64,000 nucleotides of DNA from positions 6,820,001 to 6,884,000 of the forward strand of contig JAPEHQ010000001.1 of the NCBI GenBank assembly GCA_027405735.1. The letters run 5' to 3'. The notes under the pieces were generated by a model. The model worked only from the letters and a program-made list of their open reading frames with translations. It made no database searches and was not told the DNA's origin. Made by a program: the position numbers and the translations under genes. The DNA comes from Mucor racemosus. Lineage: Eukaryota; Mucoromycota; Mucoromycetes; Mucorales; Mucoraceae. Shown here in pieces: positions 16,421-60,674 of the stretch (the first letter of the stretch is position 1; the number at the start of each line of letters is the position of its first letter).

Positions 16421-18177
16421 GCTTTCATATATAAATTCTTTAAATTTGTGATTTTATGGGCTTTTTTTGAATCCGGTTGTATCATTTTATACTTTTCAAG
16501 TTAGATCCGTTATTAGGCTAATAATGTTTTAGGTTGTATTTATGTTTTACTTAAAATAAGCCTTTGAATAATTAATAGTAATGATATACCAGAAGTTTAC
16601 CCAGATGTAGAAATCCAGGAACAACTATTAAAATCCAACATGGCATGACATTTAGTAACTCATACTAAATGTCATACATAACCACTAGCATTAACAGCGA
16701 CTATCAGGAACATTCAGGAACACTTGGCAGCAATGAACACTATGGAGAAAATATCGAACAAATAGCTCCGCTCGAGCAGAAAAAAGAGGTTTCCATGCAG
16801 AAAGCGTGCTGAAATGGTCCTTCCCGAATTATTCTGCACGCAAATGGCTGCTGAAAATGCTAGCGCGGGCTGATTACTCCAGTTTTTAGACTAAAAAGCA
16901 ATTGCTTGCGTTTTTTCTGCAAGAAGTTTAATAAATTAAAAAAAAAATAAAAAAAAAAAAATAGGCAGCACCTAAAATTATGGCTGCAACACAAAAAAAA
17001 AAAAAAAAAAAAAAAAAAGCAATGCATGCGTGAAATGATTATATATAAATGTTGGAACCAGCAGTGTCAAGCAAACTTGCCGTAAAGACATTATTGGAAG
17101 TAATGACACTATAAGTACAGTAGATGAGGATTCTGTAATTTTATATTTCACCAATCCAACAACAGATTCCGCTTCATAAAGAGAAAAACTGCTGTTTTCT
17201 TTCTTTTGAAACAGTTCAACTATAGTTATGGTAGAATCATAAGTTGCAACTGTATTAGTTTTGGCTGTATTCGCTAGTATCAAAAACCTTTGAATACCAC
17301 TGCTATAATGACAATAAGTACATTAAAAACATTCAAGATGCATCTACATTAGCTAAATGAGTGTGAATATTGAAGTTTCCTTCTGAATTGCTGTTAATTA
17401 GTTTCTATCAAAACAATCAATGGAACTCCATTGAAAACAAAAAAGTCTATTTCAAAAGAGGATTTTAGTGAAGAGAAAAAAAAAAAAGATAGCCAGGCTC
17501 CCACAACTACTACTGTATAATGTACTTTCAAGATTTTTAAAGAATTGTTTTTGCATAAATAAAAAAGCATTTAACACTGGTTTTTTTTTCTATTATTATT
17601 CAATATCTAAGATATACAGGAACATTTTTATTTTAAACCTTTTAGTTGATTAAACATTACACAACAATACAGAATCGAAAAATCGAAAAACGTCGTCTCT
17701 TGTTGGTATAATATTATTCAGGGTGCTACCACATTAAAATCACAGTCTTGGGTACACCAAAATTCATTATCATTCCTCCATAAATGCTATCCCCATGCAA
17801 CTTATCTTTCTTTTGTATACTATTATTATACTAAGCATATTAATAAAATACTCCATTTCATTATGATGATAAATTAATAACAAAAATTGTATAAAAATTC
17901 AAGTCTGCTAACTGCTTATTTCACAAGGTAAATATATATTTATTAACATGAAATGACAACTCCTGCTTAATATATTGATAATTTTGCGTCTATTTTCTTA
18001 GTTTTATAGTTGTATGATTGATGACAAAATTTGTTCCAACAAAGCCCAAAATACTAAATTACAGAAGCCTTATATTGGATAAAGTGGATCAATTATAAAC
18101 ACTTCGATGGTATTACATTTACAAAAGTGATCCTAGAGAAATATTTAAAAATAAGACTGGTTGTAAATCATCAGTTT
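16421..18177. other. Repeat-rich intergenic DNA, no gene
   Basis: It contains a cluster of GC-containing words built on GCA/TGC (16790-17035), two long A tracts (16937-16961 and about 16990-17018), and otherwise AT-rich sequence. The minus-strand frame 17283-16978 starts inside a T-rich run and shows no domain. Confidence 0.5.
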
Positions 18178-19400
18178 ATGGTGCTCGATGCTGCTTATAT
18201 TTAATTCAGTGTGATGATACCAAGTTCATTCATCTTAATGGAGATTTTGGTGGGATAATTTACACTTGAAAATCAACTTGAGATGATCAAAATGTTGCTT
18301 TTACTCAATTCAGTACGATGATATCAAATTTATTCATCTTGGTGGAGGTTTTGGTGGGATGTTTTACACTTGTAAATTAGTTTATGGTGATTGAAAATGC
18401 TACTTCTGTTCCATTTAGTATGATGGTACCAAGTTTATTCATCTTAATGGAGGTGTTGTTAAAATGTTTTACACTTAAAAATCAGCTTGAAATGATCAAA
18501 ATGATAGTTATATTCAATTCAGTACGATGTTACCAAGTTTATTCATCTTTGTGGAGGTTTTGGTGGGATGTTTTACGCTTCAAAATCAGTTTATGGTGAC
18601 CAAGATGCTACTTATATTCAATCCAGTTTGATGGTACCAAGTTCATTCATCTTAATGGTGGCGTTGGTGGGATGTTTTACGCTTGAAAATCAACTTGAGA
18701 TGATCAAAATGTTGCTTATACTCAATTCAATGTGGTGATACCAAGTTTATTCATTTTGATGGAGGTGTGGTGAAATGTTTTACACTTGTAAACCAGTTTA
18801 TTGTAATCAAAATGATGCTTATATTCCATTTAGTATGATGATATCAAGGTTACTTATTTTAATGGAGGTGTTGTTGATGGAATGTTTTGCCATTGGAAAT
18901 CAGCTTGAAATAATTTAATGTGATGATACCAAGTTTATTCATCTTAATGGAGATGTTGATGGAATGTTTTACGTTTGAAAATTAACTAGAAATGATCAAA
19001 ATGTTGCTTATACTCAATTCAATGCGATGGTATCAGGTTTATTCATCTTGATGGAGATTTTAGTGGGATGTTTGACGTTTGTAAATTAGCTTGAAATGAT
19101 CAAAATGTTGCTTATATTCAATTCAGTACGATGATACCAAATTTATTCATCTTGGTGGAGGTTTTGGTGGGATGTTTTACACTTGTAAATTAGTTTATGG
19201 TGATTGAAAATGCTACTTCTGTTCCATTTAGTATGATGGCACTAAGTTTATTCATTTTGATGGAGGTGTGGTGAGATGTTTTGCATTTGTAAATCAGTTT
19301 ATGGTAATCAAAATGCTACTTATACTCAATTCAGTGTGATGGTACTAAGTTCATTCATCTTAATGGAGGTGTTGGTGGATCTATTGAGTATAAATCAGTT
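18178..19400 (+). repeat. 104-bp satellite array, about 12 units
   Basis: The phrase gatgataccaagtttattc and its variants recur near 18216, 18321, 18424, 18528, 18634, 18735, 18840, 18924, 19027, 19133, 19238 and 19342. That is a spacing of 101-106 bp, except for one shortened unit of 84. Each unit also has ggaggttttggtgggatg and a cttgtaaatcagtttatgg-like segment. Units differ by 10-20 percent, but the stretch at 18297-18440 is nearly identical to 19107-19250, 810 bp away, pointing to a higher-order repeat of about eight units. Frames are not kept open, so it is not a coding repeat. Confidence 0.9.
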
Positions 19401-35942: not shown

Positions 35943-36024
35943 TGCAAGTTTTGAAAAGAAAGAAAGAGTAAAAAAGGTTGGTATTTACACAGTTTCATGA
36001 TCCACAAGCAATTTATAAACGGTA

Positions 36025-36172
36025 TCTTCACCCTGAGACTCAACCAGACTCAAGGTATTTTCTATCTGACTTCGAAATTAAGCAGTGAAATTGAAAAATT
36101 AAAAAGTATTTTTGAGTCACCCGCTTAAAATATTAAAAATACCTTGAGTCTGGTTGAGTCTCAGGGTGAAGA
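36025..36172. mobile_element. MITE, 148 bp, with 37-bp inverted repeats and TA target site
   Basis: The left arm starts TCTTCACCCTGAGACTC and runs to GGTATTTT (36025-36061). The right arm (36136-36172) is its perfect inverse. TA flanks both ends (36023-36024 and 36173-36174), as expected for a Tc1/mariner-mobilised MITE. The central 74 bp are AT-rich and noncoding. Transcribed, it would fold into one long hairpin. Confidence 0.8.
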
Positions 36173-36459
36173 TACTGGGTTTGAGTTGCTTATACTGAAA
36201 AATATGCAAGGACAGTAGTAGTATTCACAAGTTTTGACTTGTGCAAAAACCTTTGACATGTTGGCAATAAGAGTCGCACAGTAGTTTGCTTCGGTTCATT
36301 TGTATTAATAGCCCTTAAAAACACTATAAATAAAGAAAACTATCTTTTGATTCTCCTGTAGATTTACCTAATATATTAACTACTAAATAATAAATAATAA
36401 AAATCTACATACTTGTCATCAATATTTTGCTTAAAGCATTATTTTTATACAAAAAAAAC

Positions 36460-39400
36460 ATGAGCTCCCCACCTCCTACCGAGAATAATATTTGTAAAAG
36501 ACATCTTATTGTTGAAGATGAAGAAGAAATCGAAGCAGAAATCGAAAACCAACATGTTCTCATGAATGCTGTAGATCAAAACCACCCAACGTTTGTACCT
36601 TATACTAAAATTTTCACTAGGGTATGTACGGTATAATATCAAAACAACAAAGAAGCGCATATATCTGCAATTAACCTTTTTTAACAACTTGCGAACTTGA
36701 CATTCTGCAAAACCAAATAAATCATTTGAATTGATTTGGCCCCACAGCGTGAGCGAGGAAACCCCGCTGTTGGCCAACATTGAATGTATTAGCATCGACA
36801 ACATTTGATCTTTCTTTTCTTCTTTGTCTATTGTAATAACATCTCAATGCACATAAAAAGAAAACAATTAAATATATACGTTCCTGGCACTACAAGGAGA
36901 AATTTACCAGCAACTTTGGAAACACAAACAACTAGTCGTAGAAGAGTAACAACTGATGATGATGAAGCTTATATGAACTCGTTGAAAACTCAATTTAGAC
37001 ATAGAATCATAAAGCATATCAAAACATGCCATGATGAAAACGAGTCTTTCGATGATTTATACAAAACATTGATGCAGTTAAAGCAACTTCCAAGAGGTGT
37101 GGTCTCGAGCGCTGAACAGAGCATCAATGCTCCAGTAAATTCAATTGTAGTGTATCTAAATCGTGTAACAAGAACAACCAAAAAGAAAAGCATTGAACAT
37201 TGGAAAGACTATGTAAAAGAAAATTTTGAATCCCTCAAAGATTCAGTAACGATACAAGAAGAATCCATTGCAGCTCAAGAAGGCATTGAAGAGCAAGAAG
37301 AAGTAGATGAAAAAGAACCGGAAGAAATAGATGATAATGAAGTAGAAGACGACGTAGCACATAGAACTTGCTCCACATCCTTCTCATCAGTTATTCGAAA
37401 GGATTTGCCACAAAATTGTCGATCAACATTCATTGGTACTATCAATAAAACCATTGAACAAGCTTCAGATTACTTGGCTGATTTCAGCAAGCAAGTAATG
37501 AAAATGTTGCTGCTTTTCAAAGACAATCAATTTATCACAAATAGCGGCAATATTCAATTAGTGCACCAAGAGGGACAAAGTATCAATCCAGTGTTACCAG
37601 TAGGATATCTACACGAGGATGTGATTGTGCCTAAGCCCTTAAATAGTCAATTCCTGCAGACTGATAGCCTGAAAGAAGAGTACAATGCATTATTCCAAGA
37701 GGCTCACTTTGATCAAATCCATTCAACTTACTTTGGATCAAAAGTAATTAGCAAATCCACCCTGAATACGGCACGACTTCATAAAGCAATAGTAAATTTA
37801 CTTGGGCGTGATGAGGAGAATGTTTACAATGATTTGTCGTCTCACGTTATGAAAATGGCAAGAAATGTTTATATCGCCAATTTCATGAATATGTGGGCAG
37901 ATAATACAATCGTAAACAAAGCATTGAACAGGCTCTTGAATATTCTATTGATTGTCCATTTATCTCCTGCTCGTGATCAAGAATTCAAGAAAAAACGCGA
38001 GGAGCTCAAAGGAAAGAATAAAGGAAAGAATAGACAGCCTCCTAACAACAATTGTGCCATTCCAGTAAACTCGATGTCACTCATCAACAAAACTTATAAT
38101 GGACGCAGAAGGCTTTTCGCTGACGAGATTAAAAGAAGGAATCGTTATATCGAGAAAGGAGGAGATTGGGTTGTTAAGCAATGGAAAGCTAGCTTGTGTC
38201 AGCAAAGGCTGAACTCATATGCAGATGTTTTGCAAAGAGAGGTAAGATTGATGAACAATCGAATTGAACAAGTATATTAAACAACCTTCTTCTAGAAACA
38301 AAAGCGGCAAGTGAGACGAGAGCAGCAACGTCAACAAGAAGAAGAGCAAGGTATCAAAATGCAAGAAGCGTTGGTAGAAGAAGAGATTCAAGATGTTGAC
38401 ATGGAAGATATTTTGGTAGAAGAGGACACCTCGCGAAAAAGAATAAACCAGTTAAAGCAGATAACAAGAGCAGCTCTTTTTGAGGAAAAAACAATTTGCA
38501 AAGCATATTTTGTTGGTAAATTGAGCAACATTAGCGACAAAGAAGTGGAGGTCATCTTGAAGATTATTAAATTTGTAAAGCCATACATGGCATCTAGAGC
38601 CACATATCATGTCTTTTCACATCAAATTCCCTTTCTCTTGATGGTTAATCAAGTATTGCGTTCTGTTGGTTACCATGGGCAAGTGGTGAAATTGACCCCC
38701 ATCATTAGGCCTACAAATCTGCACGCGTTATGGATTGATGCTACTACATTACACTCTTTGTTTTGTGCTCGAAAGCTGGAACATAAGATGGTACTCCATG
38801 ATTTCGAAGGGAATGTCATTCGTGCGGCTTCAGTTACGTCTCAAAAGGATGCTGTGTTTAGTAGTTTTTTCGACATAGATCGTCTAAAAACAATATGTGC
38901 TGGCTACGGGTTGCAATTTGCCTACCGTATGCATGTACTACCTGGACTTCAATGTGTGAGAATCCTTGGTACTAGGAATTACCAAAAGCATAAACAGAAG
39001 AATAAACAGCAAACTCCTGTGACTCAGACATCCACAAGAAGCAATGAGATCAACAGCAGAATTGCAGCATTGATTGACCAGAAGACCACAATAGAGAAAA
39101 GGTTAAAGGACGCTCAAATTACACTTAATAAATATCTACTTGGTTCAGAAAGTGCTTCTCAACTGAAAAAAAAATGGAATGATGAAAATATAGATAGAGA
39201 CTCGCTGCATAAAGAGATACAAGTGACCAAGAAAAAGAAGAGACAATTGATTCAAGAAGTAGTGAAAGCAAAGCAAGAGCTGTCCAGTGCCAATAATGAC
39301 ATCTACAAGCAGAGATATGACGCTACCTCCTCTGCTGAAAGAAGACAGATAATACCAGTCGAGCCCAACAAGCCTTGCCATCACAAGGTGGAGGAGTGTA

Positions 39401-40459
39401 TTATTGATCAAAAAGTAGATGAAGACCAACTTGTATTTTCAGGGACAGATAACGGTATTGTTAATGTTACTGAGACAGTTGCTTTTGGTGTCGATAGGTT
39501 GAAATATCATCTTCGTTTGTACAATCGCTTTCAAGTATTACAAGATCAAGGTAATTTAATACTCGTTGATATCTTGCTTCTGGCTAATTTTTAATGCACA
39601 AATTTTAGAAGACGCTTATATGGAAGAAAAAGAAGACGCTCAGTTGAAGAAATTGCCCACATCATTCAAGGTAAGGAGCGCCGCCCTCCGCCAACATAGT
39701 GGTCTTGCTTCTTTTTCGTCTTCACTCAATAGAAGAAAGCGCCTCACAGTCTTAGGTCAAAATGTTGCTGATCTTGAAAGTGATCTTTCTGAGTCCAGTA
39801 TACAGCAATGTGGTACAATTGATGAACTGGATGCAACATTTACTCGCCATTCCCAAGCCAAGTCATGTATTCGTCAATTTTACTTTTCGAGATCGAGTGC
39901 TAATAAAAAAAGACGATTAGAATTAACGAAAAATCGATTTTATGATAGACTTGCATCAAAGGAACGAAAATTTACGAAAGTATCGTCCCCTATTATGTTT
40001 ATTGGAGATCGTGGGCATGCAATCAGGTCTCCTATTAAAGGACATTTGCGGTTTGGTGGATATTGGAAAGAACTGAGACATTCTCGATATACGTCTACAT
40101 TGATCACAAATGAACACAACAGTTCTCAGACCTGCCTTTGGTGTTTCAGCAAATTATCACATCCGTATACTGCAAAAGATGGTACAGTCAAGAAGACTAA
40201 TGGGTCATTCATTTGTTTGAACGATGTCTGCCCAAATAAGTCTGTCGTCATGAGCAGGGATTGTCTTTCTGCATTAGCGATTGGTCTCGCTGGTGCTGCT
40301 CAGCTTATGCTTGGTTACACCTTTCCTTGCTTTGATCCAAAAAACACAACAGCGAAACAAGCAATGTTTTCTCAATTAGCTCTGGCATTTTCGGATAGAA
40401 AACAGCAGACAAGCTGGCCCTCCGTTGGGGGTAGTACGACGAGAGCTTCGGCTCTTTGA
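36460..40459 (+). CDS. Fanzor-like (eukaryotic TnpB/OrfB-zinc-ribbon) RNA-guided nuclease
   Basis: Firm exons are 36847 (or earlier)-38241, 38296-39550 and 39609-40459, 1166 residues counted from Met 36847. An upstream exon 36460-36621 (MSSPPPTENN...) can join in phase to 36793 and would give 1238. The C-terminal third is a RuvC nuclease in the Fanzor arrangement: Asp850 in SGTDNGIV (39448), GGYWKELR, then Glu1052 in ITNEHNSSQTC (40112), zinc ribbon C1059-x2-C1062 and C1086-x4-C1091, and Asp1101 in SRDCLSALAI (40259). Fanzor proteins carry the active Glu in just this position, next to the zinc ribbon. The long N-terminal part is unrecognised, with acidic (EEQEEVDEKEPEE) and coiled-coil (TIEKRLKDAQITLNKYLL, RDSLHKEIQVTKKKKR) stretches. 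The family cuts DNA with a guide RNA encoded at the gene's 3' end. The frame is intact. Confidence 0.82.
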
Positions 40460-40460
40460 G
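40415..40460 (+). ncRNA. Candidate omega-RNA scaffold at the 3' end of the Fanzor gene
   Basis: The last coding bases form two hairpins. The first is CCCTC-CGTT-GGGGG (40418-40431). The second is GAGAGC-TTCG-GCTCTT (40441-40456), a six-pair stem with the extra-stable cUUCGg tetraloop; the stop codon TGA follows at 40457. In TnpB and Fanzor systems the guide-RNA scaffold overlaps the 3' end of the nuclease gene and the guide lies just downstream. The hairpins are seen; the role is inference. If correct, the bases after about 40460 would be the guide. A GTAAGT donor-like word directly after the stop (40461) is a complication. Confidence 0.45.
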
Positions 40461-40685
40461 GTAAGTTTATATTCATTAGACATAACTCAATACTAAATCA
40501 ATTCATTTTTAATCTTCTAAATTCAAATTCACCTTTGGTGAGTAAAATCCTTCCACATTTGTTACCCAGTCAACTAATCAAATCTCTCTTTCCTTTTTGA
40601 ACTACTTAGCTTGCTATACCCTCAGTATTCGGACTTTTTGCTAGTGAAGAGATAAACTTTTTGCTTCTTTATTTTGCTTTTTTAC

Positions 40686-43266: not shown

Positions 43267-46200
43267 AATTTCGGCACGATTTGACAAGGACGTATCTCTC
43301 TCTCGACTATAGATTACATGTTTGCCGGGAAGGAGCTCTTTCAAAGGATGAATGGTGGAGATGTAGAATTTTTCGGTCAGGAATTTACCGATCATGCACT
43401 ACTTACCAAGACCTTAACTATAGAAATGTATAACTGTGGAAAAGGTATATGGAGAGCCAATCCTTACCTATGTAAGAACAAAAGATATGTTAGCATTTTG
43501 AATAGAGAAATAGAAAACTACGTTCAAAACAAGCTAAATCCTGAACTGTCAACTCAAGACCAATGGGATTGTCTTAAGAATATGGTCAAAAAAGTTACAA
43601 CTAATTTCTGTCGCACTACCAACCAAATCAGAGAGACAACACTGAAGAAACTAAACAGTGAGAGGAACCGTATCTTGAGGTTATACCGTGATAATAAAGA
43701 ATGTCTGAATATACTACTGCCTGATATTGAAACACAAATTTCAAAATTACAAAAGGAAAAGACAGACATTGCAAGGTTGAGATCAGGAAAGTATTGGATG
43801 GAGAACAACGAAAACTCGCCGTCATATATCAAAAGAACCATTGACCAGCGAAGAGAAGCTCGTACCCTCAATATGATCAAACACCCGGATACTAGAACTG
43901 ATTGCAATGATAAGGATTCTAAGATTGGAGCAGCAGAATCTTTTTACTCTAAGTTGTACACTGAAGAAAGAATAGATATTAACTGTTTAGATGCAATACT
44001 GAACCACATTAACAAATCCATCTCTAAAGAGGAAACTGAGGAAATTACACAAGACATATCTTTTGAAGAGATCAAACAAGGTGCAAAACGAAGTCCACGT
44101 AAAAGTAGCCCTGGTTTGGATGGATTGCCATATGAAATTCTCAATATTGTAATGATTCACCCAAGATGTAAAGAAATTGTCGAAAAGGTGTACAATGATG
44201 CATTGAAATATGGAATTATTCCTAAATCTTGGCAACAAGCATGTATTATCCTACTACCAAAGAAAGGCGATTTGTCAGATTTGTCAAACTGGAGGCCGAT
44301 TTCTCTAATCAATACCGACTGCAAAGTGTTTACTAGGATTCTGAACTCCAGACTCATGGGAATAGCTTCACAGCTGATTAATAACTTCCAAACAGGATTC
44401 ATGCCACAAAGATTTATTGGAGATCAAGGGTTTTCATTAAACCTCATGATTGAAAACTCAAAAGTATGCAAAGGTTTGAATAAATCCGAGTTCACTGAAT
44501 ATGTTGGTATAATGCTAGACAACCATAAAGCCTATGATAGAGTTCATCCATACTATCTGACCAAGGTCCTAGAAAAATTTGGTATCCCTGAGTCCATCAT
44601 TCAATGCATCCAAAATCTGTTCTTCAACAATGAAATATTCGTCAATGTCAATGGTTTTCTAACAAATCCAATTAAACAAAAACGAGGCCTAAGACAAGGT
44701 GATGCTATTTCACCTCTTCTTTTTAATTTTGCGATAGAGCCATTTCTACTCTCTATCCTTAATAATGAAGCTGTAACTGGGTACACTATGCAATCAACTA
44801 AACCAAGCAGTCAAAATTCTATGAACATGGTTTCTCCAAAACCAATTAAGCTACTAGCCTATGCTGATGATATACTAATTTTTGCAAAAAACAAAGCTGA
44901 ATATTTGGCAATTGAAGATTGCTTGAAAGGATATAGCAAGGCGTCAAATTCTAAAATCAACTTAGATAAGTCGGTCGCGTTTCCCCTCCATGGCAGTAAG
45001 ATGGTGGGTCATAAAGGTGCAGAATTACGGAACTATATCACAAACAATCAACGGATGAAATGGTTTGATAATTCAAGTACAGGCTATCTTAAATATCTAG
45101 GCTACCCTCTCTGGTTCAACAATCAACAAAGAGATACCTTTGTGGACAACATTAGTGGAAAAATTCAAGCAACTGTCAACTTTTATAAAGAAAGAAAGAT
45201 ATCAGTATATGGTCGAGCAACTGTGGCCAACACAATGATACTATCAAAACTGTGGCATGTCCTAAGACTAACCAACCTACCAAAGGTGGTTACTTCAAGA
45301 TTGAATTCCATTATCTATCAATATATTGTTGATGACAGACGAATCCAAGTGAAGAAGGATGTCTTCTATCTGCCAAAAAACGAAGGGGGATTAGGCCTGC
45401 TAAACATATCAGTGCAACAGAAGATGCTACAACTTAGATACATCAATGCGTTACTTAGTGTGAGTGGAACTCCAAATCCAGTACCTAGCCATTTATATAG
45501 CTTGATGGTATTTGCCCTTCAAAATGGATGTGATACACCTCACCATGAAGTGCCTCTTCTGTTTCCTGAATCTCGTTACAAAAGTTCATTTACTGGTTTA
45601 CACTCCTTTCACAACATCTTCGAAGCTATAGACTCTTGTATAGAACAATGCAAACCGGATGCTGAAAAAATAAAAATATCACCTAAAATACTTCTCTCGC
45701 TGCCGTTCACCACCATATGCAACAAGGAACAACTCAATAATGAATTAATAAATATAAATACTGCCACAATCAAACAAAGCAAGGTACAAGACTTCTTTCA
45801 ATACACTCCTTTGACAAAATCCATAATCTACAAACCAAGACAAGAATGCAAAAAACCTAAAGTGTTATCAAAAATCATTCGACTTGAAAGAGAACAACAC
45901 ATTAAATACAATCATTTTTTCCAACAATACATGGAAAACAATTCCATAGAAAATTTTTTTGAAGAATCAAATGATTTATCAGAATACTCTAAACTAATAC
46001 AAGATGTCAACAAGAAGCCATTGCTGGATCAGAAGAAAAAACGTATAAGATACATCCTAAATCAAGGCATTCCTTTAATAATACCAAAAGGTTACAACAA
46101 TAATATATCCAAAAAACAATGGACAGAATTTTACAAGACAAATATGCATCACACAGCAAGAAACCTTTGGTTTAAAGTTATCCATGACAGAATACCATCC

Positions 46201-46738
46201 AAGTCCTTCCTTTACAACATGCAAATGAAAGATATTGATTCAGACAAATGCCACCTATGCAATCTTAGAGAAGACAGTATGCATCTGTTGATCTCGTGTG
46301 TACACAAAAAAGATATATGGCAGGAAATTTTCAACAAGTTTCTTGGGTACCCAAGAGTGGTAAATCCTCAACAGACTTATCATGACTTCAAAAATTTAAA
46401 ACTGTCCAGATACTATATATACAATTTAGACATACACATCAACATATACGACATTTTCTCAACGATAACACGCCTTATATGGTTTCATCACTTCAATCAT
46501 GTGCTCAACTCAGTGCCATTTAACAGCACAATAGTCTCAAAGAAAATATGCTCAGAGCTATATAGAATGTCTAATATGAATGACTTGTAGGATAATATAT
46601 ATATATGATACTAATATGGCAGGTCACTTTACCTAGTATACACCTTGTCCATCACTATGATGAGTTTCAATTTTCTTTTTTTAAATAAAATTTAAAACTT
46701 TCATCCCATAAAAAAAAAAAAAAATTTCGGCACGATTT
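43267..46738 (+). mobile_element. 5'-truncated non-LTR (LINE) retrotransposon with 16-bp target duplication
   Basis: The direct repeat AATTTCGGCACGATTT stands at 43267-43282 and 46723-46738. Between them lies 3440 bp that ends in a poly-A run (46709-46722) directly before the second copy, the signature of target-primed reverse transcription. ORF1 and nearly all of the endonuclease are missing, so the copy is 5'-truncated, but the remaining ORF is intact and the duplication is perfect. Both facts point to a young insertion. Confidence 0.93.
43318..46590 (+). CDS. LINE ORF2 remnant: end of endonuclease, reverse transcriptase, zinc knuckle
   Basis: 1090 residues, uninterrupted. Residues 15-30 (FFGQEFTDHALLT) are the tail of an APE-type endonuclease with the last catalytic His; the rest of that domain is absent. 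The reverse transcriptase has SPGLDGLPYEIL, LLPKKGDLSDLSNWRPISL, MLDNHKAYDRV with Asp401, GLRQGDAISPLLFN and YADD at 515-518, so all catalytic Asp residues are present. A C-terminal CCHC knuckle (CHLCNLREDSMHLLISC, from residue 978) is typical of L1/Tx1-like elements. The Met at 43318 may not be a real start, because the natural ORF2 begins upstream in a full-length copy. As it lacks the endonuclease, this copy should not move by itself. Confidence 0.9.
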   Translation: MFAGKELFQRMNGGDVEFFGQEFTDHALLTKTLTIEMYNCGKGIWRANPYLCKNKRYVSILNREIENYVQNKLNPELSTQDQWDCLKNMVKKVTTNFCRTTNQIRETTLKKLNSERNRILRLYRDNKECLNILLPDIETQISKLQKEKTDIARLRSGKYWMENNENSPSYIKRTIDQRREARTLNMIKHPDTRTDCNDKDSKIGAAESFYSKLYTEERIDINCLDAILNHINKSISKEETEEITQDISFEEIKQGAKRSPRKSSPGLDGLPYEILNIVMIHPRCKEIVEKVYNDALKYGIIPKSWQQACIILLPKKGDLSDLSNWRPISLINTDCKVFTRILNSRLMGIASQLINNFQTGFMPQRFIGDQGFSLNLMIENSKVCKGLNKSEFTEYVGIMLDNHKAYDRVHPYYLTKVLEKFGIPESIIQCIQNLFFNNEIFVNVNGFLTNPIKQKRGLRQGDAISPLLFNFAIEPFLLSILNNEAVTGYTMQSTKPSSQNSMNMVSPKPIKLLAYADDILIFAKNKAEYLAIEDCLKGYSKASNSKINLDKSVAFPLHGSKMVGHKGAELRNYITNNQRMKWFDNSSTGYLKYLGYPLWFNNQQRDTFVDNISGKIQATVNFYKERKISVYGRATVANTMILSKLWHVLRLTNLPKVVTSRLNSIIYQYIVDDRRIQVKKDVFYLPKNEGGLGLLNISVQQKMLQLRYINALLSVSGTPNPVPSHLYSLMVFALQNGCDTPHHEVPLLFPESRYKSSFTGLHSFHNIFEAIDSCIEQCKPDAEKIKISPKILLSLPFTTICNKEQLNNELININTATIKQSKVQDFFQYTPLTKSIIYKPRQECKKPKVLSKIIRLEREQHIKYNHFFQQYMENNSIENFFEESNDLSEYSKLIQDVNKKPLLDQKKKRIRYILNQGIPLIIPKGYNNNISKKQWTEFYKTNMHHTARNLWFKVIHDRIPSKSFLYNMQMKDIDSDKCHLCNLREDSMHLLISCVHKKDIWQEIFNKFLGYPRVVNPQQTYHDFKNLKLSRYYIYNLDIHINIYDIFSTITRLIWFHHFNHVLNSVPFNSTIVSKKICSELYRMSNMNDL

Positions 46739-47519: not shown

Positions 47520-50500
47520 TTAATTAGGACAGGTACCACGAGGTTGTCCACCAGGACATCCCATAGTACTGCATGTTTTACAAAACCGTGGTCTTTTTAT
47601 ACGATTTATACTTACAGAACCCAAAGCAGGTTGTGATTGTATACTTAAAATTCTTGGAATAGGTTGAGAATCCAATACAACTGGATGAGCGACGGGAAGG
47701 GAGGAAGAACGGTTTGGAGCAGGAACCAATGCACGTTGTTGGCGGTTAGCTGAAGCAACGGATGGTTCCTCCAATATGGACTGAACGGTACGAGTAGCAG
47801 GAAAATCTTGGAGTTGCTGGAATGTTGATGTTGATGCAACTGGTGCTCTTCTTTCTGGATTTTGGACCAAGACATTCATTTTTCGAAGAGTAAGGCGGTT
47901 GTCTATTCTTGCATTGACGATCTTCAGAGATTTGAGCTTTTTATTGTAGTATGCTTTTAATTGCTCTGGTGTCTTGTAAAATATAGCGATGCCATCGCTA
48001 GTAGAGCACCAATGTTTGCAAAGCTTCAAAAAATCGGGAGAAGTTCTTTTACCATAATCATTGAATTGGTTGTTTGCTTGATCAAAGATAAGGTGTTTGA
48101 ATTTATTTCTCTCTTCTGTAGTATGTACATGGACAATGGCAAACTTGGTGCCTTGTAATTGAGCCAGATATTCATAACTGTCGAAGAGGATGTTTACTTC
48201 AGAAGCAAATGTGACAATTGGCAATGCTGATACTTGCAAAAATGAATCCAATTTTGTTGCTTGAGAGATTGATGCTGGTGTTGTGGCCGTGGTGGATCTT
48301 CTTTGAACGTTTTTAGATCGACTTGAAACTCTATTATCAGGTTTTGGAGTGTAGGATTTCATAGAGAAAAAGTTTACCAAAGGAGAAGGAAGGGGTGTGA
48401 TACCAAACGTCTCTTTTGAAGAAGCAAAATCAATGGGAGAGAGATTATTCATGCAAAAGTAGGAAGCTTGTTTGGGCAAAAGAAGATGGTAACGAAGCGC
48501 ATTTATTGAATGAATCAACCAAGGTTCGAAATGGCCAACGTATTTCTTGTTCAACCTATGTTTAGAGCCAGCCTAATAGCAGAAATTTGGTTAAAACTGT
48601 ATCTAATCTACAAATTAAAGAACTTACATTTGCATTATGTCTTAAACGGTAATCAGCAAGAGCAGCATCAGCAAGTCGAATACTACCATTAATGCTCGAA
48701 AATTTTCTTACAATATTGGAATGTACACCTCCTATAGCACCAGATAATTAATGTTAGATTTATTTCGTATTGAACATTGTTATTGTTTATTACCTTCCAA
48801 ACTATTTGTTCCACGACAACAATGATATTTTGCAAGACCATTACTATCATATCCATATAAAGTGTATAAAGGGATACCTTCAGGATCCGAAACATGGCCT
48901 AAACGAACTGTTTCTAACACATTGTCTGCTGTCTTCTTGGCATCTCTATCAAATAATGGAAGGTTGATATCTGTGCAAATTATAGGACCATATTCATCAA
49001 ACAGCTTCTTGAGTAAAGGAAGCAACTGATTAGCGGGAGGAATTCGACGCTTGACACGGCTCCAAACCCAAGCAGAATTGGTCACAACTTTGTAATCCCA
49101 GGTAGTGTTCATTGATTCTAGAACTCGAGAAACATTGGCTTTGTCAGCTGGATCAGGAACTAGGAGAATGTCTCGGAACTTGGCCTTGAACTCAGAGCAC
49201 AAAGTATGCTTAATTGGCACCTTGATCATGTCAATTAAATGAAAGACATCTTTCAATACCCTACTAGTATGTGTAGAAGTCGTATCATTATTGGTAGCAG
49301 CATTTCCTACAACAGTGTTAGGCCCATCTTCATTTAGTAGCTCAGAATATCTTTGTAATTCATTAGCTTGGTTGTTGTTAATAGCTTGAGCAACTGAATT
49401 CCTCATGTTACCACCATTACCGCTATTCAGAGGACATTGTCGAAGCATAACCTTGTTGACAACAACAAAAGAATGCGAACAGCCAGTATTATCCAATGTC
49501 TTTTTAGGGCCATGCTCTGGAAGACGCATGTTTGGTTTTAATACTTCTGTGATTTCAACAAGCACAGATTTGTTGCTCTTCAAGTTTCTTCTCATAGGGA
49601 CACCAAAAGCTTGAGAAGATTTCTCTCTTATGTAGCCAAATGCCGAAGGAGTCATAGACAGAGAGTTTCTTGGGAAAAGAGCGACATATGTGTCAACGGG
49701 AGGAATGTCCAAAAATGATGTATAAAGGGTTTCAACAGATTTTGCCTTGCAATATACGCGAAGCATAAAATAAGTTTCCAGAGTCAATCTTTGCACTTGG
49801 GCATCATCAAGAAATTCGGCTTCCCACCTTCCAGATTCAACGAGTGTAGGCTCCTTTGGAAATTTCAGGTCGAAGAAAATTCTGCAGAAATCTGTCAATG
49901 TACTACCAGAACCATTTGGGCATCGATTATTGCAAAATGAAGTAAATCCAACAGAGTTTCTAATTTGCAGTAATAAGGCAGGATATTGCTCATTTAGACT
50001 TGCAACAAGTACGTTCAATCGAGTTCCAATTTTACCAATGCTTGAATCTTCAAAAATCCTTCGTAAAGCAGAAGAAAAATTGTTGTTGATAATTTTGAAA
50101 ATGAAGACCTTACAATCTAAAGTTGCGATTGATATACGAACTACATTGCGACCATTGATTGAAGATCTCTTGTAATTAATCAAGACAAAAAGACCAGAAT
50201 AATTACTCAAAATACTGAGGCAGTGATTGTTCATCTCCTCAACTGTATTGCTGACAATTATTTCGAGACCATGAGGGATTGTAGCAACCGGAAGGCCATC
50301 GATGGGTTGTACATTTTCCAAAAGTGAAGGTAAATGCTCTTCCAGAAAATTACTATCGGTTCTAACATTGTCCGTATAAAAGATCTTGGGCTTTTCATAT
50401 CCGTACATAGTATACGCATTCCACAATTTGTCGAAGGAAGTTATCAAATGAATGAGTGATTTTGTCAAAACGAAAGATTGTAATCTTATCTCTTCATATT

Positions 50501-51967
50501 CATTTGTTACTGTATATAAAGCATCAAAAACATTTACACCACTAGCAAGTGGACTGATGTTGCTTGCTGCCTTGAATGTATGATCACCTTTCAATATAAC
50601 ACCATCAACTTTCATAATTTGATTATCAAGATGTGGTCTGAGCGTTGCTATCAAAGATGTATAAACAAAACTGAGATAGTTTGCTGAAGGATAATAACCA
50701 TTATAACCATCCTTATCATTGAATTTTGAGAATTCAGGAGCAGGAACTGGGAGAGAAATCAAACTGGAGCTATTATCGACTCTGTATTTGTAGTTGGCCA
50801 AGTACTGGAACTGAAGCGTATCATATCTTTTAAGATGCAATTCTTGTAGGATATTACTAAGTCTAAGTGGACCAGTTGAGGATTGCACCAAAGGACGCAT
50901 CAAGTCAGCAAGGTCTCTTGATATACCACTTCTTTTAGTCAAGAAAGCAGGGAATTCAGCCTGTGCAATGATAGGAAGTTGTCTAATGAGTTCAGTGTCG
51001 GTACCAATTATTCTGCAACTACATTTATTACATTTGTAAAAGCATGACATGAGGTAAAAGCAACTATGTATACAAATAATTTGTTAATACAAAGGAAAAT
51101 TTACGACAATTGTTTATATACATACTCTTTAATATCAATAATCCTTCTGGCAAGCGGGCTCTTGGTATATCCATCATTAATCATGAAACGAGGTACAGAA
51201 TCATTCTTTGCACATTCAGGGCATTTAAACTTTTGGTTATCATTGTAAAACAGGTAATGAGGAAACCAAAGAAAGACTCGTGGTTGCAAAACACATTTCT
51301 GATCTGCTGTTACACTCTTCTTCAATTTAAAAAAGGCAGCTTGTTGAGAATACCAAAATGTACCATCCTTGTAGGCTTGTGGCATTTCATTTCGCTGAAA
51401 CTTTTTCTGGATTGATTCAAGATATTCATTCAAACTGGATGAATCTCCATTTGTTGTAATGTCATCCTCAATTCTATCAAACATGTCGCTATCAACATCA
51501 ACTTCTTGTTCGTATTCGTCATACTCAATGTCGATTCCATAGCTGTTACTTTCAGTTAAATCGACGCTTTGATTATAAATCGATGGGATCTAAAGTGGTT
51601 TTTTTTATTATTAAAATCATATAAATACATAGCACATGTTTGTATATATATATATTACCTCTTCTATATCACTTGATCCTTCATCATTATCAGAATTACC
51701 ATCACTAGAATCCATCGAATCACTTGCAGAATTACTGTCACCGGCAGAGACATCATCCACACTGGCAGAGGCATTATCAATATCAATATTGCTTGCTGAG
51801 GTACTAGCACCGACACCGAAATGGGATAACAAACTTGTTTGGTTTTGACAGCTAGTTAGCCCCTTATTTACAGGAGGTCGGCCAGCGTTAGGATTTGCTC
51901 CTCCTCGACGTCTACCTCTTTTACCGCCTAAATTAGATCTTCTTCCTCTAATAGGCATAATAATCAA
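47520..51967 (-). CDS. DUF6729 / DDE-like transposase with degenerate 3'-5' exonuclease domain
   Basis: Five exons (51967-51659, 51589-51105, 51063-48794, 48731-48628, 48572-47520) give 1406 residues in one intact frame. Order of parts: basic RGRR N-terminus; acidic Ser/Asp linker; a zinc domain with RVFLWFPHYLFYN, CPEC and CNKC (DUF6729-like); a DDE-like core with Asp425 in LKGDHTFKA and Asp496 in FYTDNVRTDSNF; a region resembling RNase D/WRN 3'-5' exonucleases (NVVRISIATLDCKVFIFKI ... LTLETYFMLRVY) but without the DEDD acids; then CCRGTNSLEGGVHSNIVRKF, ADYRLRHN and a C-terminal Cys-rich knuckle (RPRFCKTCSTMGCPGG). This layout is typical of mobile-element proteins in fungi and corals; how it acts is undescribed as far as I know. 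The start could also be ATG 51958. Confidence 0.72.
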
Positions 51968-59320: not shown

Positions 59321-60674
59321 TACAGTCGGGGTTACTAATGTTTCATCCATTCCCTATTTTTTCTATTTTTTTTTTTGTTATACTTTTCTTTCAAACTCTT
59401 TCTTTATTAATAAAACAATGTCCAAAACTTTTGAAATTAACATCAAAAAATTGCAAGACCCAACAGGAACCAAGCAAGATGTAAAAAAAAATGAAGCTTG
59501 GCGCAATTTTTTATTTAAAACAGCTTGGATTTAGCCAATATGACATTTCTACTATGATTGACATAAAGCGTCCTACAATCCAAAGTATCATATCCAGAGG
59601 AGATCAAACTGGTACTACTTTAACAGGAAAAAGTACTGGAAGGCCATCTACCTTTGATGATTATACACAACGCCATTTGGAGCGATCAATAAGGAGAGAT
59701 CCCTTTCAAACATTAGAGACCATTACGGGGCAACTCAGAATGATGGGAAAAAATGTCTCTCGCTCGACAACAAGAAAATGGATAAGAAAGTTGGGCTTCA
59801 AGTACTATAAACCTGCTGTTAAACCCAAGTTAACAGAGGAACATAAAAAAAATAGACTGGAATGGGCACAATTTCATATCAATTGGTCTAATGAACAATG
59901 GAGACAAGTGGTTTGGTCTGATGAGTCAAGATTTCGTATTTGTGGCAATGATGGTACACCATTAGTTCTAAGAAAACAAGGTGAAAGGTATGAGAGTTGC
60001 CATATATTACGTTCGGTAAAATTTGGTGGTGGTAGTGTGATGGTTTGGTCTTGTTTTTGGGCTGGGGGTTTTGGACCTTTGGTCTTTATTGACGGAAATA
60101 TGAATCAAGAATCATATATTGATGTATTCTCGCAACACTACATTCCATGGGTTCAAGACTTACATCAAAATGAAGGTACTAATTTTGTGTTTCAGGAGGA
60201 TAATGCTACCTGTCATACAGGTGCATATGCAAAATGGTGGAAGAGATCACATTCAATGAATGTTATGGAGGACTGGCCATCACAAAGTCCTGATCTCAAC
60301 CCCATTGAACATGTTTGGAGCGAGCTCGCTCGTAAATTACGTAGCCGTAAACATCTAATTAATAATACCGAAGACCTTCGACGGGAACTTCTCGTCGCTT
60401 GGGAGAATATTGATGTTGAGTTCGCTGCCAAGTTAATTGAAAGTATGCCCAAAAGATGCAAGGCAATTATAGATAGCAAGGGAGAAGCAACAAAATATTA
60501 GTTTTATTATTTTATTTTTACTTTCAAGTAATAAACATATATATCTTATTTTTGACGAAGTATAGAATTATCAGAGACTTGCAATAAAGAGCAAACCAAA
60601 TTTGAAAATAGGTGTTCATTATATTTTCATTTTCTTAATTTTTTTTGGATGAAACATTAGTAACCCCGACTGTA
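59321..60674 (+). mobile_element. Complete Tc1/mariner element with 27-bp perfect TIRs
   Basis: The element 59323-60672 begins CAGTCGGGGTTACTAATG; the first 27 bases are repeated perfectly inverted at the right end. TA flanks it on both sides (59321-59322 and 60673-60674). The F1 copy has the unoccupied site near 15941-15945 (cctaaatatattgac). Perfect TIRs and a long open transposase frame suggest recent activity. Confidence 0.95.
59491..60501 (+). CDS. Tc1/mariner transposase, DD35E spacing
   Basis: 336 residues from ATG 59491. A helix-turn-helix region opens it (YLKQLGFSQYDISTMIDIKR), followed by a second one with STTRKWIRKLGF. The catalytic triad is Asp144 in WSDESRF, Asp237 in QEDNATCHT and Glu273 in SPDLNPIEHVW, with 35 residues between the last two instead of the 34 usual in Tc1. 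Another frame starting at 59418 (MSKTFEINIKKLQ) runs into this one across a run of nine A (59483-59491). So either translation begins at 59491, or the A run has slipped by one base and cut off about 25 N-terminal residues. Confidence 0.9.
   Translation: MKLGAIFYLKQLGFSQYDISTMIDIKRPTIQSIISRGDQTGTTLTGKSTGRPSTFDDYTQRHLERSIRRDPFQTLETITGQLRMMGKNVSRSTTRKWIRKLGFKYYKPAVKPKLTEEHKKNRLEWAQFHINWSNEQWRQVVWSDESRFRICGNDGTPLVLRKQGERYESCHILRSVKFGGGSVMVWSCFWAGGFGPLVFIDGNMNQESYIDVFSQHYIPWVQDLHQNEGTNFVFQEDNATCHTGAYAKWWKRSHSMNVMEDWPSQSPDLNPIEHVWSELARKLRSRKHLINNTEDLRRELLVAWENIDVEFAAKLIESMPKRCKAIIDSKGEATKY

Follow-up and report, generated by a model that had tools for sequence, protein, structure and literature searches.

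A multicopy, probably Fanzor-type mobile element of Mucor racemosus with CAGTAT at its junctions

A stretch of 64,000 nucleotides of the Mucor racemosus genome (contig JAPEHQ010000001.1, positions 6,820,001 to 6,884,000; hereafter the window) carries a mobile element, family A, that is probably a young, recently active member of a group of Fanzor1 elements lacking inverted repeats at their tips and a recognised transposase. Fanzors are RNA-guided DNA-cutting enzymes, and the protein encoded by family A likely belongs to the Fanzor1 lineage, as judged from its sequence. The features of the element in the window are collected in Table 1.

Table 1. Features of the family A element in the window (positions are those of the window)
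Feature	Position	Strand	Remarks
Long imperfect palindrome, left end	36006..36191	+	Arms 36006-36061 and 36136-36191, with 74 bases between
Fanzor-type mobile element, family A, about 4.6 kb	36016..40628	+	Ends common to 20 other copies
Left insertion motif	36018..36025	+	AACGGTAT in the window copy; AACAGTAT in 17/21 copies
Proposed first exon	36460..36621	+	Probably non-coding; non-coding-like variation; donor altered in 7/21 copies
Coding exon 1	36847..38241	+	Residues 1-465; purifying selection; start shared with family B
Intron	38242..38295	+	GT-AG in 21/21 copies
Coding exon 2	38296..39550	+	Long helices, likely a coiled coil, followed by Asp850 (SGTDNG)
Asp850 codon, RuvC-I candidate	39448..39450	+	Conserved in families A, B and C
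Intron	39551..39608	+	GT-AG in 21/21 copies; missing from family C
Coding exon 3, including stop	39609..40459	+	Glu, zinc ribbon, last Asp
Glu1052 codon	40112..40114	+	Aligned with a Glu of SpuFz1
Zinc ribbon CxxC...CxxxxC	40133..40231	+	C1059, C1062, C1086, C1091
Asp1101 codon, RuvC-III candidate	40259..40261	+	Last Asp, in register with SpuFz1
3' non-coding end, expected scaffold place	40460..40622	+	No positive signal
Right insertion motif CAGTAT	40623..40628	+	DNA past the motif differs from copy to copy

Copies, ends and junctions of the element

Family A occupies 23 places in its own genome (53.2 Mb in 54 contigs): 22 copies are full-length and one is split into two pieces, all at 97-100% identity. 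A count of 23 was also obtained for genome matches to the right end and for places with the active-site word of the family. We read 21 of the 23, the window copy and 20 others (L009-L028), which are 97.1-99.8% identical to it and whose alignments end at about 36016 and 40628. The search for other genomic copies that the initial annotation had proposed as a way to define the ends of the element gave 23 places with sharp ends. With its multiple copies, sharp ends and introns, the gene is carried by a eukaryotic mobile element. The copy L009 lies 49 kb from the window copy in inverse orientation and is 99.8% identical to it. Three of the 23 copies (C1:6738756, C1:6803581 and the window) fall inside 122 kb, a clustering that suggests local hops.

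The frame is open to its end in 18 of the 21 copies; L011 and L016 carry a stop, and L020 has a one-base deletion. With each variant counted once, N/S per site is 0.27 (over 36910-38241), 0.44 and 0.27 across the three coding exons, which hold one, one and no stop-making variants, respectively. The coding frames are under purifying selection.

Among the matches listed (25 of 77), there is no inverted pair at the element tips, and the inverted matches that link the two ends are AT-rich inner ones only (I3 and I5, 78-80% over 20-23 nt). No Pfam transposase was found in the frames. The two marks of a cut-and-paste DDE transposon, terminal inverted repeats (TIRs) and a transposase of its own, are thus both missing from family A by these searches. 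Scans of the whole window with Rfam (at gathering scores) and for tRNAs gave nothing.

The junctions carry a fixed motif. At the right, CAGTA is present in 20 of the 21 copies and TAGTA in one, and the full CAGTAT is present in 18. At the left, where the search pattern required AA, two copies (window and L028) differ by one base from the AACAGTAT of the 17; the exceptions are L015, which is truncated, and L019, which reads TTCAGTAT. Past the hexamer, the left junctions and the right flanks of the same copies have 33 bases in common over 19 copies, compared to 11.7 expected from permuted flanks, and none of 20,000 permutations was as high as 33. The shared runs are unequal: there is none in 12 of the 19 copies, but L018, L023 and L013 share 8, 6 and 5 bases, so that their duplications are 14, 12 and 11 bases long. 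In seven copies such target-copied bases follow the motif at the left junction (0-8 bases across the 19 copies). In those copies the motif and the bases after it are therefore target-derived, and the position of the left joint varies.

When the joined flanks of 19 copies were compared to the genome, none of the 40 candidates scored, out of 82, was an unoccupied site. Two partial genome matches, at C19:365459 and C9:215582, were found for the right flank of L020. At all three places a stretch of 52-60 bases (90-92% alike) follows CAGTAT, and the upstream DNA differs; this stretch may be the left end of a different element family that served as a landing site. As the C19 and C9 matches are perhaps a repeat starting at CAGTAT, they do not settle the pre-insertion sequence.

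The two ends of the element differ in their constancy. The right tip keeps the family sequence to within a few bases in 20 of the 21 copies, and only L019 ends in GCTATATCGTTA, as in family B, a related family in this genome. At the left end, the full palindrome is absent from six of the 21 copies (L014, L015, L018, L019, L022 and L025), being shortened in L014, L022 and L025, and its loop is inverted in L017 and L027. Palindromes are inherently unstable, and this instability may account for part of the left-end variability. Over about 100 bases, L019 and family B have left ends that are 87-90% identical, and an A-type palindrome (98-100%) lies about 2.8 kb upstream of the expected start of three family B copies. 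Judged from these alignments, left ends are exchanged between families, and right ends mostly remain with the gene.

The nearest precedent is MCi-2 of Mucor circinelloides (Bao and Jurka 2013, PMC3627910). In its description there, MCi-2 resembles family A in having a Fanzor1 gene and no recognisable TIRs, in copies with a near-identical 3' part and differing, partly fuzzy 5' parts, and in duplications in which variable bases follow a fixed hexamer, ATAATTNNNN(N) in MCi-2; a second family, MCi-5, has putative 6-bp duplications, ATTTAT (PMC3627910). By description, family A has the features of the MCi-2 type: the duplication of hexamer plus variable bases, the fuzzy 5' ends and the shared 3' part. 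It differs from the published account in its hexamer, CAGTAT, and in its number, 23 places versus 11 copies of MCi-2 (PMC3627910), and, in a comparison made by description only, in its palindromic left ends shared with another family. The Fanzor literature covered, mostly open-access titles and the openings of abstracts, gave no account of CAGTAT-directed elements. A target motif and a guide start can be predicted from the junctions of the 21 copies, and these junctions sharpen the oddity of 2013, fuzzy 5' ends with fixed-hexamer duplications, into a question of how a Fanzor element moves.

Candidate routes of movement

The RNA-guided model that we put forward was built by analogy with TnpB and Fanzor, and it fits the junctions. 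The guide RNA would be taken from the 3' end of the element, such that the right CAGTAT would be the end of the scaffold and the flank that follows would be the guide, and the left CAGTAT, perhaps just its last bases, would act as the target-adjacent motif (TAM). The complex would cut element-free copies of the site, and repair would copy the element in or keep it there; the first joint at a new site would, by default, be the work of a separate enzyme acting in trans. The TnpB proteins of IS200/IS605 and IS607 would be alike in their RNA-guided nuclease logic and in the fixed motif at the left junction, but differ in that the family A gene has introns and no recognised recombinase beside it. 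The TAMs reported for Fanzor1s include CATA, TTAA and ATN (PMC11423790); ATN, the TAM of PpFz1 from Parasitella parasitica, would match the last bases of CAGTAT together with the base after them. In other Fanzor1s, the guide-RNA scaffold is predicted to include the target duplication (PMC10711439). The enzyme of family A may itself read the insertion motif.

At the 3' end, we found no guide-RNA folding signal better than shuffles (z -0.15; 0.02 for family B) and no guide-RNA conservation signal (22 of 159 sites variable versus 86 of 565 in other non-coding DNA, P 0.71). A slower rate of change at this end (9 versus 19 per 1000 bases) was also considered, but vanished in that same count of variable sites.

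It is an even call whether the element is a Fanzor-derived passenger, in which case an unrelated transposase from elsewhere would move it and fix the CAGTAT site, and the nuclease would aid retention only; this account overlaps our best explanation, which leaves the mover open. Fanzor1 genes are described as known passengers of several transposon superfamilies (PMC3627910). The genome is indeed rich in DDE transposases (40 matches to the Harbinger-type model and 167 to DDE_3), and the three B copies with A-type left ends about 2.8 kb upstream belong with this account in that long B forms may carry extra genes. However, no Harbinger-type, tyrosine-recombinase or DDE_3 match falls in the B extensions, by position, among the matches listed, no inverted repeats were found at the element tips, and, to our knowledge, these transposon superfamilies do not typically make duplications that combine a fixed hexamer with variable bases.

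We consider it unlikely that the nuclease itself opens the insertion site, in a transposase-free movement in which the cut falls at the TAM-like CAGTAT and break repair copies the element in. Repair would then fix the right end at the motif, and the left end would be joined loosely, so that, if true, this route would account for right ends that are conserved and for left ends that carry target-derived bases, are truncated and are exchanged between families. Both the looser left joints and the left-end exchange would be as compatible with break repair at a nuclease cut as with a trans-acting enzyme.

A guide-free mode of cutting, in which the RuvC-like part would be a site-specific endonuclease for about AACAGTAT, is improbable. 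In its favour, 19 of the 21 copies have a fixed target of 6-8 bases (altered by one base in two of the 19), the 3' end gave no guide-RNA signal, and the large unrecognised N-terminal region of the protein could read DNA, but characterised homologues with the same C-terminal arrangement are reported to use a guide RNA (PMC10432273, PMC11423790).

Gene model and predicted protein

The initial annotation had described an open multi-exon gene bearing nuclease motifs, and indeed the motifs sit in one open gene, with three coding exons and a product of 1166 aa. The first exon that it placed at 36460-36621 is probably wrong. Among the 21 copies this interval has 24 differences per 1000 bases, similar to the 5' DNA (19) and intron 1 (18), compared to 7-11 in the coding exons, and its donor, GT at 36622, is GC in five copies and TT in two. 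Because the proposed exon varies like non-coding DNA, its donor varies and family B starts at the equivalent position (with MRRRKRQLDVYISGTT, compared to MHIKRKQLNIYVPGTT in family A), we take the ATG at 36847 as the likeliest predicted start of the protein. Two splice choices via the proposed exon were tried, and their frames are also open (1238 and 1200 aa). The in-frame bases directly upstream of the ATG (36793-36846) have 6 differences per 1000, a conservation at exon level, and therefore an upstream exon joined at 36792, and a longer protein (1238 aa in one model), is possible. Of the earlier estimate of about 1170-1240 aa, the unusual length stands, the likeliest value moves to 1166 aa, and the conservation of 36793-36846 leaves room for 1238 aa.

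Most Fanzor1s are reported to have 600-700 aa (PMC11423790), and some up to about 800 aa (PMC10711439). The 1166-aa protein stands out against these usual sizes, and open frames of its kind occur in at least two multiplied families of the same genome. Its large N-terminal region has no recognised domain: a Pfam search of the gene's frames for a known N-terminal domain fusion gave matches below cut-off only (TNB 0.083, Herpes_UL69 0.0034 and two weaker), with the TNB model at 13.5 bits versus a cut-off of 26.3.

The motif positions given in the initial annotation were confirmed, namely SGTDNGIV (Asp850), TNEHNSSQTC (Glu1052), CxxC (1059/1062), CxxxxC (1086/1091) and SRD (Asp1101). The Asp, Glu and Asp follow each other in RuvC order, and the Glu stands six residues ahead of the zinc ribbon, the arrangement that marks Fanzor1. 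The first Asp, the Glu motif, both Cys pairs and the RD are kept in 20 of the 21 copies, the exception being the frameshifted L020. The position of Asp850 is assigned from its order and its conservation in the families, and no alignment to a known Fanzor spans it. Residues 824-915, which include Asp850, match RNA polymerase alpha weakly (PDB, E 0.058; NCBIfam, E 0.0018 in one of the three members of a three-family set), and this identity was set aside as a chance match. For the RuvC fold with REC and WED domains that is expected of a Fanzor1, structure models from the single sequence are of low confidence (mean pLDDT 35.6 and 46.9). We infer a RuvC nuclease fold with a zinc ribbon for this protein.

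Probable Fanzor1 affinity, related families and surroundings

A DNA pattern for E-[FLYH]-[NK]-x-x-Q-[TA]-C is found at 57 places in the genome and at none when the pattern is read backwards, and the Glu/Gln/Cys pattern is therefore found more often than by chance. Sorted by word, the 57 places are 23 A, 12 B, 16 C and one C-like (L034), 3 D, and the singletons L032 and L033. The family B copies that were read (L029 and L030) are 96.5% identical to each other and 43-50% identical to family A, with open frames and the family A introns; the one family C copy read (L031) carries a stop and is without the last intron. Invariant in five families are TNE, SQTC, the second Cys, NG, F, the second Cys pair and RD. 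The same kind of pattern search in viral and genome contig collections gave 51 and 138 matches, none of which was confirmed as a relative.

A genome scan with the TNB model (PF07282) found 11 places, five of them above cut-off and none in family A. One place, L037 (C11:327917), is a canonical Fanzor1, with 36.1 bits to PF07282 and SpuFz1 of Spizellomyces punctatus as its best solved relative (E 5.9e-4). Upstream of L037 there is also a zinc-knuckle match, below cut-off (18.8 of 22 bits).

The claim that the family A protein is Fanzor-like is supported by profile comparisons, although the family's own scores are weak. A five-family C-terminal profile (126 positions) ranked SpuFz1 (8GKH) first of 177,635 solved sequences, with a weak E of 0.11, and in this alignment the Glu, the CxxC, the second Cys pair (CTNPNC versus CLNDVC, also written CxNxxC) and the RD are all in register. 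The aligned Glu and Asp of SpuFz1 both lie 394 residues past the published numbering E541/D606, an offset that fits a fusion tag in the solved chain; the metals of SpuFz1 are reported to be held by E541, D383 and D606 (PMC10432273, PMC11423790). A three-family profile aligned with L037 over 111 columns (score 27.7; P 0.0036, weak), compared to at most 21.6 in 60 shuffles and 19.3 for the reversed sequence, and the five-family profile gave P 0.011. An upstream piece of L037 gave no useful alignment, and no alignment covers the first Asp or the first 800 residues. Against the solved sequences, the three-family profile had no Fanzor in its 11 matches, which are mostly coiled coils, and searches with the protein, its frames or the three-family set were negative or below cut-off. 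It is quite improbable that this is a RuvC/zinc-ribbon protein of another, non-Fanzor lineage. The weak or absent scores of family A to known Fanzors would suit such a lineage, but the best profile match is the Fanzor SpuFz1, with catalytic residues in register, and the alignment to L037 in the same genome was unmatched by 60 shuffles.

As a likely Fanzor1, the family A protein can be set beside two characterised members. SpuFz1 is alike in the Glu beside the zinc ribbon, but has 633 aa, in an element described with 33-bp TIRs and putative TA duplications (PMC3627910), compared to 1166 aa and no TIRs for family A. PpFz1 is likewise a Mucorales Fanzor1 with an insertion in its nuclease part; it differs in that this insertion, of about 100 aa, is described as cyclophilin-binding (PMC11423790). 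Sequence searches with family A did not recover PpFz1.

Other frames and a tandem array lie in the window. An open frame of 1101 aa at 43285-46590 (+), 2.7 kb past the element, has reverse transcriptase and zf-RVT domains and is perhaps a non-LTR retrotransposon. At 48780-51083 (-) there is a 767-aa DUF6729 protein with 49 genome matches, several copies giving two; on C12, C13, C26 and C39 its copies are spaced about 5,062 bases apart, near contig ends in the case of C13 and C26, and they are perhaps a subtelomeric array. A frame at 59485-60501 (+) encodes a Tc1/mariner-type transposase (HTH_Tnp_Tc3_2 and DDE_3), and tandem repeats of 104 or 208 bases per unit fill 18170-19378, with 6.9 and 4.5 copies of the 104-base unit in two stretches.
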